From: Desulfatibacillum alkenivorans DSM 16219
GTDB taxonomy: Bacteria; Desulfobacterota; Desulfobacteria; Desulfobacterales; Desulfatibacillaceae
Length of the DNA: 64,000 nt
NCBI RefSeq assembly: GCF_900142135.1
Contig: NZ_FQZU01000026.1
Location: 1-64,000 of the forward strand
Reading direction: 5' to 3'
This document shows positions 11,078 to 29,566 of the stretch, piece by piece. Position 1 is the first letter of the stretch. Each line of letters opens with the position of its first letter. Below the pieces are notes generated by a model that saw only the letters and a list, made by a program, of their open reading frames with translations, ran no database searches and had not been told where the DNA came from. The translations under genes and the position numbers were made by a program.

Positions 11078-12442
11078 GTGAAGATCCTTATTGTAGGCGC
11101 GGGGGAAGTCGGTTTTCATATTGCAAGCCGTTTGGCCACGGAAAACAAGGACGTGGTCGTCATAGATAAAGACCCCAAGGCGTTGAAAAGGGTTTCAGAG
11201 CAACTGGACGTCCAGGTTTTTGAAGGATCGGGCAGCAGTCCGGAAGTGCTTCGGGAGGCGGGGATTTCCCAAAGCGACATATTGCTGGCCGTCACTGATT
11301 CGGACGAAACCAACCTGGTTTCCTGCCTGGTTTGCGATCTTCTCTCCCCAGCCACCCGCAAGCTCATACGCATCCGGGATTCGGATTACACCGATTTTAC
11401 GGACCGCTTAAAGGACGATCCTCCGCATATTGACACGGTGATCAACCCGGAAGTGGAATTGGTGCGTACGGTTCAGAGGCTATTAGAGGTTCCGGGGGCC
11501 GAGGACGTGGCGGAGTTTTCCGACGGCGCCATCAAGCTGATCGGAGTGCGCCTGGACGAACTGTCTCCTTTATCCAACATGCGTTTGACCAAATTGCGTG
11601 AGGTGACCGGAGACTTTCATCTGCTCATCGCCGCTATTGTCCGGGATGAGGAGTTGATCGTCCCCACGGGCCGGGACTCCCTTTTGCGGGGAGACCTGGT
11701 GTACTTTGTAACGGACGACGCCAACCTGCACACGGCCCTCAAACTTTTCGGCAAGGAATCCCGCACTGTGAAGCGGGCCTTTATTGTGGGCGGAGGCCGC
11801 ATTGGCATGCGTCTGGCCAGGGCTTTGGCGCAAAACGGCGTGTATGTGAAAATCGTGGAAGACGATCCGCAGCGGTGCAACCGGCTGGCCGAAGCCCTGA
11901 ATAACGTGGTTGTGCTCAACGGGGACGGCACGGACCAGGGCTTGCTGGCCGAGGAAAACATCGAGGATATGGACGTGGTCATCACCGTGACCGGAGACGA
12001 AGAAACCAATATCCTCACCTCCCTGCTCGCCAAACGCATGGGAGTGCCCATTGCCGTCACAAGGATTAACAAATTCGGATACTTTCCCTTGACCACGGCT
12101 ATTGGGATCGAGCATGTCATAAGCTCCAGGCTGTCGGCAATCAACACGATTTTAGGGCATGTCCGGCGGGGTAAGGTGCTGTCCTCCGTATCCCTCAAAG
12201 GGGAGCGCGCCGAGGTTTTGGAGGCCGAAGCTCTTGAAACCGCGGAGATTGTGGGAAAGCCTTTAAAGAGCATCAGCTTTCCAAAGGGCGCGCTGGTTAT
12301 CTCCATCATAAGGGATAACGAGGTGATCATCCCCAGGGGGGACAGCGTGATTCAGCCTGCGGACCGGATCATTCTGTTATGCTCCCAACAAGCCATTCCA
12401 AAAATCGAAAAGGCCATGGCCGTCAAGCTTGAGTTCTTTTAA
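11078..12442 (+). CDS. trkA: Trk potassium uptake regulatory subunit TrkA
   Basis: This 454-residue cytosolic NAD(H)-binding gating subunit of the Trk K+ transporter has two tandem RCK units. Rossmann motifs are GAGEVGFHIA at residue ~7 and GGGRIGMRLA at ~233, each followed by a TrkA-C domain (EVELVRTVQRLLEVPGAEDV; VLEAEALETAEIVGKPL). The start is the GTG at 11078, preceded by GGGAGG. It lies 63 bp after bioN and 140 bp before trkH; the transporter pair is presumably co-transcribed. Confidence 0.94.
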   Translation: MKILIVGAGEVGFHIASRLATENKDVVVIDKDPKALKRVSEQLDVQVFEGSGSSPEVLREAGISQSDILLAVTDSDETNLVSCLVCDLLSPATRKLIRIRDSDYTDFTDRLKDDPPHIDTVINPEVELVRTVQRLLEVPGAEDVAEFSDGAIKLIGVRLDELSPLSNMRLTKLREVTGDFHLLIAAIVRDEELIVPTGRDSLLRGDLVYFVTDDANLHTALKLFGKESRTVKRAFIVGGGRIGMRLARALAQNGVYVKIVEDDPQRCNRLAEALNNVVVLNGDGTDQGLLAEENIEDMDVVITVTGDEETNILTSLLAKRMGVPIAVTRINKFGYFPLTTAIGIEHVISSRLSAINTILGHVRRGKVLSSVSLKGERAEVLEAEALETAEIVGKPLKSISFPKGALVISIIRDNEVIIPRGDSVIQPADRIILLCSQQAIPKIEKAMAVKLEFF

Positions 12443-12582: not shown

Positions 12583-14031
12583 ATGAGATGGGGCCACACA
12601 TTTTCGGTTGTAGGAATTTTGCTTGTTTTTTGCGGGCTGGCCATGGCGTTGCCCATGCTGGTCGGCCTGTATTATCAGGACCAGAGCATCATTCCCCTGG
12701 CCAAAGGCATGGGGATCACGCTTCTGGTGGGCGCCATGATTTATCTGGCGGCTCCTGCCAAACAACAGGAATCCCTAAGCCATAGGGAAGGCATGGCCAT
12801 TGTGGCTCTCGGCTGGGCCGCCGTTGGCGTAGCCGGCGCCCTGCCTTTTTATTTTTCCACGTCTTTTTTGGGGTTTACGGACGCAGTGTTCGAATCCGTG
12901 TCCGGTTTCACAACCACCGGATCCTCCGTGTTGTCCGACATCGAAGGCGTGCCCAAAGGGCTTTTGATGTGGCGCAGCATGATCCAGTGGCTGGGCGGCA
13001 TGGGCATTATTGTGCTGTCCGTCGCCATCCTGCCCTTTTTGGGCGTTGGCGGTATGCAGTTATATAAAGCTGAAGTGCCCACGCCGGTTCCCGACAAGTT
13101 AAAGCCCCGCATCCGCGACACGGCGGTCATCCTGTGGCAGGTTTACGCCTTGTTTACGGTTTTGGAGGCCGTGCTGTTGTTTGTGGGAGGCATGAGCGTT
13201 TTCGACTCGGTTTGCCACGCCTTCACCACCATGCCCACGGGCGGCTTTTCCACGCTGAACACCTCCGTGGGGCAGTATCACAGCCCTTATTTTGAGTGGG
13301 TGATCATTATTTTCATGATCATAGCGGGCATTAACTTTTCCTTACACTTTCAGTTATTGCGGGGCAAGCCCATGGCCCTGTGGAAAGATCCCGAATGCCG
13401 GTTTTTCCTGGGCCTTGTATTCGTGCTGGTTGCCGTAATCACCCTGAACATCCACGGGAAGATATTCACCAGCCTGAACGAATCCATACGGGCTTCGGCC
13501 TTTCAGGTTTCCTCCATCATAACCACCACCGGGTACGCCACGGCCGATTACGAGCTATGGCCGGCCTTGAGCCAGCTTCTCATTATGTTTTGCATGGTGG
13601 TGGGCGCCTCGGCAGGGTCCACCGGCGGCGGCATCAAGTGCCTGCGGGTCATGCTGCTTTTTAAATACTGCTACCGGGAGTTGTTCCGCATGATCCACCC
13701 CCGGGCCGTCATCCCGGTCAAGCTGGGGGGCAGGGTGGTGCCCGAGGATGTGCTTCACAGCGTGTGCGCCTTTTTCGTTTTGTACATGGGCTTGTTCGCT
13801 ATTTCGGCCCTGGTGCTTGCGGGCATGGGCGTGGACCTGGTGACCTCCATGGCCGCCGTGGCCGCCACCATCGGCAACATAGGCCCCGGGATCGGAGGCG
13901 TCGGGCCCATGGACAATTTCGCAAACATCCCTCTGGCCGGCAAATGGCTTTTGGTTTGGTGCATGCTCCTGGGCCGCCTGGAAATCTACACGGTCATCAT
14001 CCTGTTCGTCCCCGAGTTTTGGAGGAAGTAG
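12583..14031 (+). CDS. trkH: Trk-type potassium transporter membrane subunit TrkH
   Basis: This 482-residue polytopic inner-membrane channel subunit takes up K+ with TrkA. Four M-P-M repeats can be followed by their filter loops: GFTTTGSS (~residue 107), TTMPTGGFST (~212), IITTTGYAT (~312) and ATIGNIGPG (~430). The loop between the second halves contains the usual cluster GASAGSTGGGIK. The length is normal and hydrophobicity is high throughout. It is 140 bp downstream of trkA on the same strand. Confidence 0.94.
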   Translation: MRWGHTFSVVGILLVFCGLAMALPMLVGLYYQDQSIIPLAKGMGITLLVGAMIYLAAPAKQQESLSHREGMAIVALGWAAVGVAGALPFYFSTSFLGFTDAVFESVSGFTTTGSSVLSDIEGVPKGLLMWRSMIQWLGGMGIIVLSVAILPFLGVGGMQLYKAEVPTPVPDKLKPRIRDTAVILWQVYALFTVLEAVLLFVGGMSVFDSVCHAFTTMPTGGFSTLNTSVGQYHSPYFEWVIIIFMIIAGINFSLHFQLLRGKPMALWKDPECRFFLGLVFVLVAVITLNIHGKIFTSLNESIRASAFQVSSIITTTGYATADYELWPALSQLLIMFCMVVGASAGSTGGGIKCLRVMLLFKYCYRELFRMIHPRAVIPVKLGGRVVPEDVLHSVCAFFVLYMGLFAISALVLAGMGVDLVTSMAAVAATIGNIGPGIGGVGPMDNFANIPLAGKWLLVWCMLLGRLEIYTVIILFVPEFWRK

Positions 14032-26328: not shown

Positions 26329-28035
26329 ATGAATGCCTTTATCGTAATGGCCTTGGTTTTGGCTTGGTTTTATGCAGGATACCGATTTTACGGAACCTGG
26401 GTGGAGAGAAATCTGGTAAAGCCGGACGACGCCAGGCCCACGCCGGCTTACGAGTTTGAGGACGGCGTCGACTACTCGCCGGCCAAAGTCAGCTTCCTGT
26501 GGGGGCATCATTTCTCCTCCATAGCGGGCGCCGGCCCCATTATCGGCCCCATCCTGGCCACGGCCTGGTTCGGCTGGGCTTCCGCCATCTTGTGGATCGC
26601 CATTGGGTGCGTGTTCATTGGCGCCGTGCATGATTATCTGTCCCTCATGCTTTCCGTACGCCACCAGGGCAGGGGTATTTCCGAAGTGGCCGGAGACACC
26701 TTGGGGAACGTCACCCGGCTTTCCTTCGGCATTCTCATCTGGATTACGTTGGTGTTCATCATCGCCGTGTTCGCCGTCAGCGCGGCCAACGCCCTGGCCA
26801 ATATGCCCGAACTGGTCATTCCGACCTTCGGCGTTTGCTTTGTGGCCGTCCTGCTGGGCCTGGCGGTGTACAAATTGAAAATCAACGCGGTGTTAGCCTC
26901 TATTGGAGCGGTTTTTCTTTCGTACTTTCTAATTTACGTGGGTTACAATTATCCGATTGCCCTGGATGGATGGTCGCATGCAAGCAAGGTCATGCTTTAT
27001 TTGAACCTGCTTATGGGGTATTGCCTCATCGCCTCCATGCTTCCGGTTTGGGTGCTGCTTCAGCCCCGGGATTTCATTTCGTCGGTGAAATTGTTTGTGG
27101 GGCTTTTTCTCGGTTTACTGGGCGTTTTGGCGGCCAGGCCTGATTTTACGGCGCCCGCGTTCATCACCGGTTCGGACAAACCCATGTGGCCCATTATGTT
27201 CATCACCCTGGCATGCGGCGCCGTAAGCGGCTTCCACTGCCTGGTCGGGACCGGCACCACCTCCAAGCAGCTTGACAAGGAAAGCCACGGAAAAGTCGTG
27301 GGGTACGGCGGCATGATCATGGAGGGCGTACTGGCCGCCCTGGTGGTGGTTGTTGTGGGCGCGGGCCTCAAATGGGGACAGGCTCCGGCCGGTGAGGCCG
27401 CCGGGCTTTATTTCGCCTCTTCCTTGGAGCAAGGCTGGATTGTGGCTTTCAGCAATGGATTCGGCGCCATTGTGGGCGATGCAGGCCTGCCCTTTTTAAG
27501 CGCCGCCGTGGCGGCCCTGTTAGGCGGAGTTATGGTGAAAACCTTTGTCATGACTTCGTTGGACACATCCACCCGCCTCGGGCGCTTTATCTTCATGGAG
27601 ACCTTGTTCTCCAGCGTAAAGTTTTTAAGGCGCACTTTTGTCGCGACCATGGGAACCCTGGCGCCCGCCTATTATCTGGCCGCCACGGGCAATTGGAAAA
27701 ATATTTGGAAGCTGTTCGGCGCTTCCAATCAGTTGATCGCCGCCATCAGCCTGCTGGTGATCACGGCCTGGCTGGCCCAGAGGCGCAGGGCCATCGCTCC
27801 GGTTATCTTTCCGGCCTTGTTCATGGTGGCCACCACCATTGGCGCCTTGGGCTGGTCCGTCTTCAACAAAAACGGATATCTTGGCGCCGGACCCGGCCAT
27901 GACCTAATGCTGGGCGTTATCAGCCTGGCGCTCATTGCATTGGCTTTGGTCATCGCCTGCTCTGCGGCTTTTTCCTTGTTAAAAGACAAGGGTGCGGAAA
28001 AAAGGCGGGAGACCGACTCCGAGGCGTCTGCTTAA
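26329..28035 (+). CDS. cstA: Carbon starvation protein CstA (peptide/pyruvate transporter family)
   Basis: This 568-residue polytopic membrane protein has ~16 hydrophobic segments. It has the CstA N-terminus (GYRFYGTWVERNLVKPDD), the signature SFLWGHHFSSIAGAGPIIGPI near residue 70, GAVHDYLSLMLSVRHQGRGI, and HCLVGTGTTSKQLDKESHGK. GAGGAGGGGG precedes the ATG. It is of the shorter CstA type without the C-terminal DUF4161-like extension. The family is linked to peptide or pyruvate uptake under carbon limitation. It sits alone between the maf operon and the diadenylate cyclase gene. Confidence 0.9.
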   Translation: MNAFIVMALVLAWFYAGYRFYGTWVERNLVKPDDARPTPAYEFEDGVDYSPAKVSFLWGHHFSSIAGAGPIIGPILATAWFGWASAILWIAIGCVFIGAVHDYLSLMLSVRHQGRGISEVAGDTLGNVTRLSFGILIWITLVFIIAVFAVSAANALANMPELVIPTFGVCFVAVLLGLAVYKLKINAVLASIGAVFLSYFLIYVGYNYPIALDGWSHASKVMLYLNLLMGYCLIASMLPVWVLLQPRDFISSVKLFVGLFLGLLGVLAARPDFTAPAFITGSDKPMWPIMFITLACGAVSGFHCLVGTGTTSKQLDKESHGKVVGYGGMIMEGVLAALVVVVVGAGLKWGQAPAGEAAGLYFASSLEQGWIVAFSNGFGAIVGDAGLPFLSAAVAALLGGVMVKTFVMTSLDTSTRLGRFIFMETLFSSVKFLRRTFVATMGTLAPAYYLAATGNWKNIWKLFGASNQLIAAISLLVITAWLAQRRRAIAPVIFPALFMVATTIGALGWSVFNKNGYLGAGPGHDLMLGVISLALIALALVIACSAAFSLLKDKGAEKRRETDSEASA

Positions 28036-28114: not shown

Positions 28115-29566
28115 ATGATTTCCAACTTTTTGCAAACAGTTTTGGGATGGCGGGCGTTGACGGACATCATCCTCATCGCTTTGGGGATGTTTTTCGTCTA
28201 CCACACCCTCCGCAGGCTGGGAACCTGGAAGATGTTTCTGGGGCTGGTGATGGCCATGCTCACCTATGTGGGCGCCAATTTATTGGGCCTGGAAGGAATC
28301 ACCTGGATTTTTTCCAACCTGAGCCATGTGGCGCTCATTGGCATCATCATTATTTTTCAGCCCGAAATCCGGAAAATGCTGGAAAGCTCGGTTTCTCCGG
28401 CGCGCCGGGAGCCCGAGGGGCCCGAACACGAGGGCCTGCCCATGATGATTGCAGACGCCCTGTTTTCCCTGGCCAAAATTCCCTGCGGCGCCATTTTCGT
28501 TTTTCCCGGACGGGACCCCCTGGAGCGTTTTCTCACGGGAGGCGTTTCCTTGAACGCCGATCCGAGCCCGGAGCTGATTCTCAGCATATTCGACACCCAC
28601 TCCCCCGGCCACGACGGCGCCCTGCTTGTCCGGGACGGCCGTCTGGCCGGATACGGATTTCGCCTGCCCATTTCCAAGTCCTCCCACCTGCCCAGGGAAA
28701 TGGGCACCCGGCATCATGCGGGCATGGGGTTGTCGGAAATTACGGACGCCCTGGTTTTTGTGGTTTCGGAAGAGAGGGGGCTGGTTTCCTTTTTCAAAAA
28801 CGGAAGGCTGTCCCGCGTCCCTGGCCGAAAGGAAGCGGTGGAAGCCATTACGGATCACTGGAAGGCCTCGGCCTCCTTCTTGCCCCAGCCGGAAAAGGGG
28901 ACTAAAAAATGGACCACCGCCGTGGAACTTGTGACCGCCTTCATGCTCACCATCCTCCTTTGGTCCAGCGTGGTCATAGGACGCATGGAGATCGTGGAAA
29001 AAAGCGTGGAGACCCCCATTGTCTATGTTGCCTTGCCCGCCAACATCGCCCTTTCCGGGGTCAAACCCACGGGCACGCGCATTCATATGGCTGGGCCCAA
29101 ATCGCAACTGGACAACCTGACCGCCGACAACCTGCGGGTGCGCATCGACCTTTCCAAGGCCCAACCCGGCAAACAGACCTTTTTCGTATCCCGTGAAAGC
29201 CTGAACCTGCCCAAGAAGGTGGACCTGCTGGATGCGGACCCTTCGGAAATCAACCTGTCCCTGGAAGAAACCGTGGACATGGAAGTCCCCGTGACCCCCC
29301 AATTGGTGGGGCAGCCAAGGCAGGGCTGGACCGTGGCGAGCGTCGCCGTGAAGCCGCAGAAAGTCCGGGTGGTCATGAAAAAGGGCGAAGGCGAACAACA
29401 AGCCCCCGCCGTGACCACCACGCCCATCTATCTGGACGGCCTGGGCTCCAGCACGTCCATCCGATGCAAGATCATCGCTCCGCCCGACGCCCAACCCTCG
29501 GACAAACCCTGGCCCGACGTGGAAGTGCAAATCCGCCTCATTCCCGTGGAGGCCAAGTCGGAGTGA
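28115..29566 (+). CDS. Diadenylate cyclase (CdaA-type) fused to a YbbR-like region
   Basis: This protein makes c-di-AMP from two ATP. The 483 residues begin with three transmembrane helices (~1-85: ALTDIILIALGMFFVY, FLGLVMAMLTYVGANLL, HVALIGIIIIF), then the DAC domain with FQPEIRKMLE, the catalytic HDGALLVRDGRLAGYG (near residue 170) and TRHHAGMGLSEITDALVFVVSEE (RHR-type loop). A further helix near 275 (VELVTAFMLTILLWSSVVIG) leads to ~200 residues with YbbR-repeat character: VYVALPANIALSGVKPT, then MEVPVTPQLVGQPRQGWTV. CdaA and YbbR/CdaR are normally separate adjacent genes, so this is a natural fusion that puts the cyclase and its regulator in one chain. ATG 28115 is preferred to TTG 28112. 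The ribosome site is weak. Confidence 0.85.
   Translation: MISNFLQTVLGWRALTDIILIALGMFFVYHTLRRLGTWKMFLGLVMAMLTYVGANLLGLEGITWIFSNLSHVALIGIIIIFQPEIRKMLESSVSPARREPEGPEHEGLPMMIADALFSLAKIPCGAIFVFPGRDPLERFLTGGVSLNADPSPELILSIFDTHSPGHDGALLVRDGRLAGYGFRLPISKSSHLPREMGTRHHAGMGLSEITDALVFVVSEERGLVSFFKNGRLSRVPGRKEAVEAITDHWKASASFLPQPEKGTKKWTTAVELVTAFMLTILLWSSVVIGRMEIVEKSVETPIVYVALPANIALSGVKPTGTRIHMAGPKSQLDNLTADNLRVRIDLSKAQPGKQTFFVSRESLNLPKKVDLLDADPSEINLSLEETVDMEVPVTPQLVGQPRQGWTVASVAVKPQKVRVVMKKGEGEQQAPAVTTTPIYLDGLGSSTSIRCKIIAPPDAQPSDKPWPDVEVQIRLIPVEAKSE

Follow-up and report, generated by a model that had tools for sequence, protein, structure and literature searches.

In Firmicutes, CdaA and CdaR are encoded as separate proteins. 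A single open reading frame of Desulfatibacillum alkenivorans DSM 16219 therefore raises the question of whether a cyclase and its YbbR-type regulator are joined in one chain, and whether such a chain would still make c-di-AMP. The frame lies in a stretch of 64,000 nucleotides (positions 1 to 64,000 of contig NZ_FQZU01000026.1), which is called the window here. The initial annotation had described a diadenylate cyclase (DAC) domain with HDGA and RHH motifs, both thought intact, followed by a membrane helix and YbbR-like sequence. A natural single chain with fixed stoichiometry would be a handy object for structural and topological work. The mechanism by which the regulator controls the cyclase "remains unclear", in the words of one paper (PMC8573169).

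The frame is uninterrupted and encodes 483 amino acids; alignment with relatives places its start at the ATG rather than at the preceding TTG, and its stop codon ends at 29566 (Table 1). CdaA_N comes first, followed by DAC, by another helix predicted to span the membrane and by a pair of YbbR repeats, and the matches to CdaA_N, DAC and YbbR (in two stretches) all exceed the curated Pfam cut-offs. Both the DAC domain with an intact HDGA and the helix followed by YbbR were thus borne out, the former by Pfam and the sequence itself, the latter by a segment at 266-291 and two repeats found by profile search. A hydropathy scan placed the membrane segments within residues 1-85 and at 266-291, between DAC and YbbR, and also flagged residues 110-131, inside the DAC region.

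Table 1. Coordinates, within the window, of the fusion gene and of the features that it encodes
Feature	Position	Strand	Basis or remark
cdaA-ybbR fusion gene, RHH-type, 483 aa	28115..29566	+	alternative start TTG 28112
CdaA_N transmembrane domain (PF19293), residues 11-85, E 1.5e-7	28145..28369	+	Pfam, hydropathy
DAC domain (PF02457), residues 114-231, E 1.5e-31	28454..28807	+	Pfam
HDGA motif, residues 166-169, canonical	28610..28621	+	
Arg183, aligned with adenine-stacking Tyr187 of Listeria CdaA	28661..28663	+	
TRHH, residues 198-201, replacing canonical TRHR	28706..28717	+	
SEE motif, residues 218-220, canonical	28766..28774	+	
Predicted fourth transmembrane segment, residues 266-291, after KGTKKW	28910..28987	+	Kyte-Doolittle only
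YbbR repeat 1 (PF07949), residues 298-382, Pfam E 2.7e-10	29006..29260	+	Pfam; six-frame genome search E 2.9e-5
YbbR repeat 2 (PF07949)	29285..29488	+	six-frame genome search E 6.1e-4

As in CdaA, a CdaA_N domain precedes DAC and HDGA is present. However, GTRHHA stands in place of GxRHRxA, and the score against the NCBIfam equivalog model for CdaA (TIGR00159) was 146, below the cut-off of 188.8. Because of the changed motif, we file the protein as CdaA-derived and not as a CdaA equivalog. The YbbR repeats lie behind a membrane helix, as in CdaR (the helix being predicted from hydropathy only), but they share a chain with the cyclase instead of forming a separate protein. A profile of the clade to which the protein belongs found its best matches among solved chains named diadenylate cyclase or CdaA (including 9g69, 6gyw and 4rv7; E 1e-47 to 7e-33). 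An AlphaFold2 model, for which the fusion protein and its relatives L033 and L034 were used, had a pLDDT of 48, and a promoter scan around the fusion gene found none.

Two relatives share the layout. The closest named one, L033, from a Desulfatibacillum sp. MAG, is 80% identical over 483 residues, and L034, which a contig end cuts at residue 447, is 70% identical. Two genes joined by a frameshift, which the initial annotation had named as a finding that would refute it, could therefore be rejected. For the fusion gene compared with L033, dN/dS was 0.14 over the full length. For the DAC part by itself it was 0.09, a rough value because dS is high there (1.4), which points to strong purifying selection on this part between the two species.

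We found a DAC match in 302 of the 389 genomes of the class (Desulfobacteria) and none in the other 87. Among the 150 class matches listed, with weaker ones outside the count, 146 sit in frames of at least 365 amino acids (122 at 450 or more, 24 at 365-449), and the four in frames shorter than 300 may be truncated or separate. The full-length fusion profile aligned over both halves in most of the listed class matches. In the phylum (Desulfobacterota, 395 genomes), fused and separate forms coexist; the 20 phylum loci that we picked to include both kinds, 10 separate (frames of 257-304 amino acids) and 10 fused, give no estimate of their proportions. The fusion is a common domain arrangement in the phylum and is not special to D. 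alkenivorans. We met no description of a cdaA-ybbR fusion among the abstracts and passages that the literature search covered. Nevertheless, a 2023 paper by Galperin in J Bacteriol on DAC domain architectures reportedly treats such architectures; the fusion may already be recorded in surveys of this kind, and we make no claim that it is unpublished.

Diadenylate cyclases are described as carrying RHR, or GxRHRxA (PMC8573169, PMC12974146). What had been read as an intact RHH motif is thus a substitution of the third motif residue. We read 93 sequences in detail, comprising 38 of an RHH/RHQ type, 13 with RHT, 32 fused RHR and 10 separate RHR forms. The third motif Arg is missing from all 38 of the RHH/RHQ type (RHH in 34, RHQ in four), and at position 183, the residue before "LP", 37 of them have Arg and one has His. 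In the RHT type this position is His in 11 and Gln in two, whereas all 42 RHR sequences have Ile, Leu, Val, Phe or Tyr. Arg, His or Gln at position 183 is therefore found in 51/51 sequences without the third Arg and in 0/42 RHR sequences, although, because the RHH/RHQ and RHT types group together in trees, this pairing of positions 201 and 183 represents one or two events and not 51. The best solved chain has a Tyr opposite position 183, and this position is spaced from the motif Asp and Thr exactly as Tyr187 is from Asp171 and Thr202 in Listeria CdaA. In the Listeria enzyme, Tyr187 stacks on the adenine and is displaced as the active dimer forms, and the adenine is read by main-chain atoms of Leu188 (PMC10167629). 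The Leu that follows position 183 is kept (L184).

Other motif residues are retained. HDGA and the first motif Arg were present in 93/93 sequences. SEE, checked in 63 sequences, was found in all but L110, which is of the RHR type and has SEQ; across 15 aligned clade members, HDGA, T198, R199, H200 and S218-E219-E220 are invariant. Changing the first motif Arg to Ala abolishes the activity of Leptospira CdaA (PMC12974146), and changing the whole of RHR to AAA abolishes that of M. tuberculosis DacA and of CdaS (PMC3328451, PMC4568413) and removes ATP binding in M. tuberculosis DacA. In the passages on mutated cyclases that we read, we met no single-residue change of the third RHR Arg. Whole clades without that residue test which motif residues a diadenylate cyclase needs.

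The RHH/RHQ type is well separated in searches. With a Desulfatibacillum-type profile, 31 genomes of the class gave 33 matches scoring 320-1044 bits, and all other matches were at or below 234 bits; with a 15-row profile, the phylum search showed a gap from 509 to 342 bits, and eight genomes above it lie outside the class. Among the 31 class genomes with this type, 10 have no DAC match besides it (six of these ten are >90% complete), and the other 21 have at least one more. We also observed a second fused lineage, with GLRHTA (L035-L041, L127, L128, L139, L140, L142, L146), which seven genomes of the source organism's family hold, six of them as their sole DAC match, and a short fused RHR form with frames of ~400-460 amino acids on its own long branch (L147, L021, L022, L025, L027).

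In a tree of 63 whole proteins, one branch (100/100) set off the 30 rows of the RHH/RHQ type and another (100/100) the seven of the RHT type, with the warning that long branches meet in it, RHT and RHH among them. A tree of 80 CdaA halves was built without positions 160, 183, 198 and 201 and, to thin it, without 13 rows of the 63-protein tree. In it the RHH/RHQ clade again had 100/100, one branch split the 10 separate from the 70 fused forms (100/100), and rooting on that branch made RHT and RHH sisters (95/87). The tree of 56 YbbR halves set 28 fused ones on one side (100/98) and, on the other, separate CdaR and orphan YbbR proteins, which have no adjacent cyclase; RHT and RHH were again together (95/82), while orphans and separate CdaR were poorly resolved from each other (78/27). 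The comparison of fused with separate forms that the initial annotation had proposed thus puts them on opposite sides of one branch in both half trees. The domains, their order and the motifs are thus established, as is a supported clade in which two active-site residues have changed, the third Arg to His or Gln and the stacking position to Arg. The simplest reading of these trees would be one fusion within the sample, after which a common ancestor of RHT and RHH lost the third Arg; rooting with the separate form as ancestral is an assumption taken from the separate form known in Firmicutes.

At all 10 separate loci, cdaA stands between ftsH and folP, which are together at one flank, and ybbR at the opposite flank; in three of them, the gene after ybbR starts like glmM and presumably is that gene. 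In the source genome, the same place reads ftsH-folP-ybbR-coaX, with the cyclase absent (ftsH, folP and coaX being putative assignments from their sequences). Because only 5 bases separate folP from ybbR, there is no room for a cyclase gene. The orphan YbbR protein has 306 amino acids (L159:6264-7184, G000:C16) and a YbbR match at E 9.9e-14. Among the loci returned, another 21 in the class have an orphan YbbR, with coaX after it in 21/21 and folP before it in 20/21, the one without folP being cut near a contig end. A YbbR search of 63 chosen genomes gave a match in 48. This search was not fully sensitive, since in seven genomes other than the source genome that hold the RHH-type fusion Pfam YbbR fell short of the E 0.001 threshold; in G015 it matched the orphan only. 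YbbR in those fusions is therefore assigned from alignment with the Desulfatibacillum protein. For ten DAC-less genomes, the search gave a YbbR match in two (G003, G042) and none in eight. The persistence of an orphan ybbR after the cyclase left the operon suggests that YbbR has a role apart from an adjacent cyclase. It also qualifies the proposal of a fixed 1:1 stoichiometry, which follows from the fusion itself but is incomplete for a genome with a second YbbR.

The upstream neighbour is cstA, of the carbon starvation protein family (26329-28035, same strand), which ends 79 bases before the fusion gene; it was not found near that gene in the stretch read from a second Desulfatibacillum-like genome (L094). 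Downstream, a small protein that matches Rho_N below threshold comes first. It is followed by a recombinase of the phage integrase family and then by a peptidase of proteasome type next to an AAA_2 ATPase, a pair that we take to be hslVU-like. Only the fusion gene itself is common to the stretches compared in the two Desulfatibacillum-like genomes. Likewise, no neighbour common to all RHH-type loci was found within ~9 kb at 21 loci. By clustering, an MgtE-cluster gene lies within that distance at 5/21 RHH-type loci (one being a 129-aa piece) and a DUF5698-DUF2179 cluster at 5/21, compared with 0/17 RHR loci for each; MscS, SLC12 and CNNM genes are also near some RHH-type loci. In a Pfam tally limited to the three closest genes on either side, the RHH loci (119 genes) gave MgtE four times and CNNM and MscS three times, and the RHR loci (102 genes) gave DUF2179 and YitT_membrane twice each, with MgtE, CNNM and MscS absent from the 25 families shown, families with few members being hidden. 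The MgtE-cluster genes (Mg2+ transporter, CBS domains) are at L078, L088, L090, L092 and L093, with an SLC12-type transporter as well at L078, L090 and L092. It is possible that both kinds of transporter are effectors; MgtE, MscS, SLC12 and CNNM neighbours are absent from the source organism's own locus.

The RHR-type fused genes have a different neighbour, lying directly behind a DUF2914 gene with a gap of -4 to +6 bases at 15/17 class loci. A DUF2914 profile built from 16 genes matched at 17/17 class RHR loci, which are largely its own sources, and at 5/5 long fused-RHR loci outside the class. It found none at 20 RHH loci (some short and cut by contig ends), seven RHT loci, 10 separate loci or the one short fused-RHR locus. 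The DUF2914 protein is likely a partner of the RHR-type fused cyclase (L095-L111, L141, L143-L145, L148). A PF11141 search had no match in the source genome, nor in the control genomes.

The initial annotation had concluded that c-di-AMP signalling exists in this organism. Because the third motif Arg is substituted, this does not follow from the sequence. The genome has one further DAC match, a DACND-DACNH-DAC protein (L002:418-1941, G000:C21; 49.6 bits) in which DGA is present but RGARFNSA replaces GTRHRA; G015 has one like it (L044). It also has one PgpH-like 7TM-HD protein. As a marker of c-di-AMP signalling, this phosphodiesterase was rejected, since it occurs in 358/389 class genomes, including DAC-less ones, and so lends the pathway no support. 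TrkA, encoded with TrkH 14-17 kb upstream of the fusion gene (trkA 11078-12442, trkH 12583-14031), had been named as a target, which is plausible given its two TrkA_C domains; but with seven TrkA_C matches in the source genome and at least one in 13/14 control genomes, the presence of the domain proves nothing here. A search for the c-di-AMP riboswitch (RF00379), which was positive in B. subtilis, gave no match in the source genome. None of these four observations settles whether the pathway is present. In the class, c-di-AMP looks dispensable, since 87 of 389 genomes are without a DAC match.

We favour, at a probability of about 0.6, a membrane-anchored diadenylate cyclase that descends from CdaA and carries its own CdaR/YbbR regulator in the same chain. 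Three N-terminal helices would anchor the DAC domain to the cytoplasmic face of the inner membrane, and the fourth would recross the membrane, placing the YbbR repeats in the periplasm; the extracytoplasmic YbbR proposed earlier follows from this predicted topology. The state of the periplasm or envelope (osmotic, ionic or wall stress) might then act through the helices on the head-to-head meeting of two DAC domains, and this contact would set the c-di-AMP output, presumably made with RHH, to ion transporters. We favour a cyclase because the domains lie above cut-offs, the profile matches CdaA chains, the motifs are invariant, purifying selection appears strong, the essential first Arg is universal among the sequences read, and the type is the sole DAC match in 10/31 genomes. 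Against it count the third Arg missing in 38/38, the inactivity of RHR to AAA mutants, the missed TIGR00159 cut-off, the class genomes that do without any DAC match, the missing riboswitch, and the absence of the transporter neighbours from the source organism's own locus.

Part of this evidence would suit a DAC domain with RHH or RHQ (perhaps RHT) that has lost cyclase activity and binds ATP or c-di-AMP. Its signal would cross the membrane to reach YbbR or other partners, and it could serve as a sensor or inhibit an RHR-type enzyme with which it pairs. The two active-site positions differ together, a further DAC match accompanies the type in 21/31 class genomes, and the AAA change in M. tuberculosis DacA costs ATP binding. 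However, HDGA, R199 and SEE are all kept, which is more than sensing alone would require, and in 10/31 genomes the type is the sole DAC match; we consider this account unlikely, though the strongest competitor. A cyclase with a changed substrate or product, such as another cyclic or linear dinucleotide, is improbable: Arg in 37/38 at the position aligned with the adenine-stacking Tyr187, with His or Gln in RHR, might shift base choice or chemistry, but adenine is read through the main chain of the next residue, Leu188 (PMC10167629), which is kept, and at the stacking position RHR types have Ile, Leu, Val, Phe or Tyr with no known product change. A sequencing or assembly error joining two genes has next to no chance, since, although adjacent separate cdaA and cdaR genes exist in the phylum, the fused frame recurs in most listed class matches, the trees of both halves match and the relatives already refute it.

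Besides the favoured single-chain cyclase, we put forward tentatively, as possible rather than probable, a longer history. After one fusion in this phylum, a lineage would have acquired His/Gln or Thr in place of the third RHR Arg and, along with it, a base-stacking position that is polar or charged, and would have become a distinct membrane dinucleotide enzyme or sensor that replaces the canonical cyclase in some organisms; the ancestral operon would have lost its cyclase and kept an orphan YbbR, which would either work independently of any cyclase or act on the fusion in trans. The surprising part of the present results is this clade with two changed active-site residues, the sole DAC in some organisms, together with an orphan YbbR in the old operon.

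Among known systems, CdaA (DacA) of Firmicutes resembles the fusion protein in CdaA_N plus DAC, HDGA, the first Arg and the His of RHR, SEE and its profile match; the fusion protein differs in RHH, Arg at the Tyr187 position, a fourth helix with two YbbR repeats and a TIGR00159 score below cut-off. CdaR (YbbR), encoded beside cdaA, likewise has a membrane helix followed by YbbR repeats, but the YbbR part of the fusion has no gene of its own, and the 28 fused YbbR parts are set apart in the tree. The DACND-DACNH-DAC protein shares the DAC domain but has two other N-terminal sensor-type domains and no CdaA_N or YbbR match. The RHR fused CdaA-YbbR proteins of the same class and phylum have the same domain order and, in each of the two half trees, group with the fusion protein apart from the separate forms, whereas they keep RHR and adjoin a DUF2914 gene, which none of the 20 RHH-type loci was found to have.
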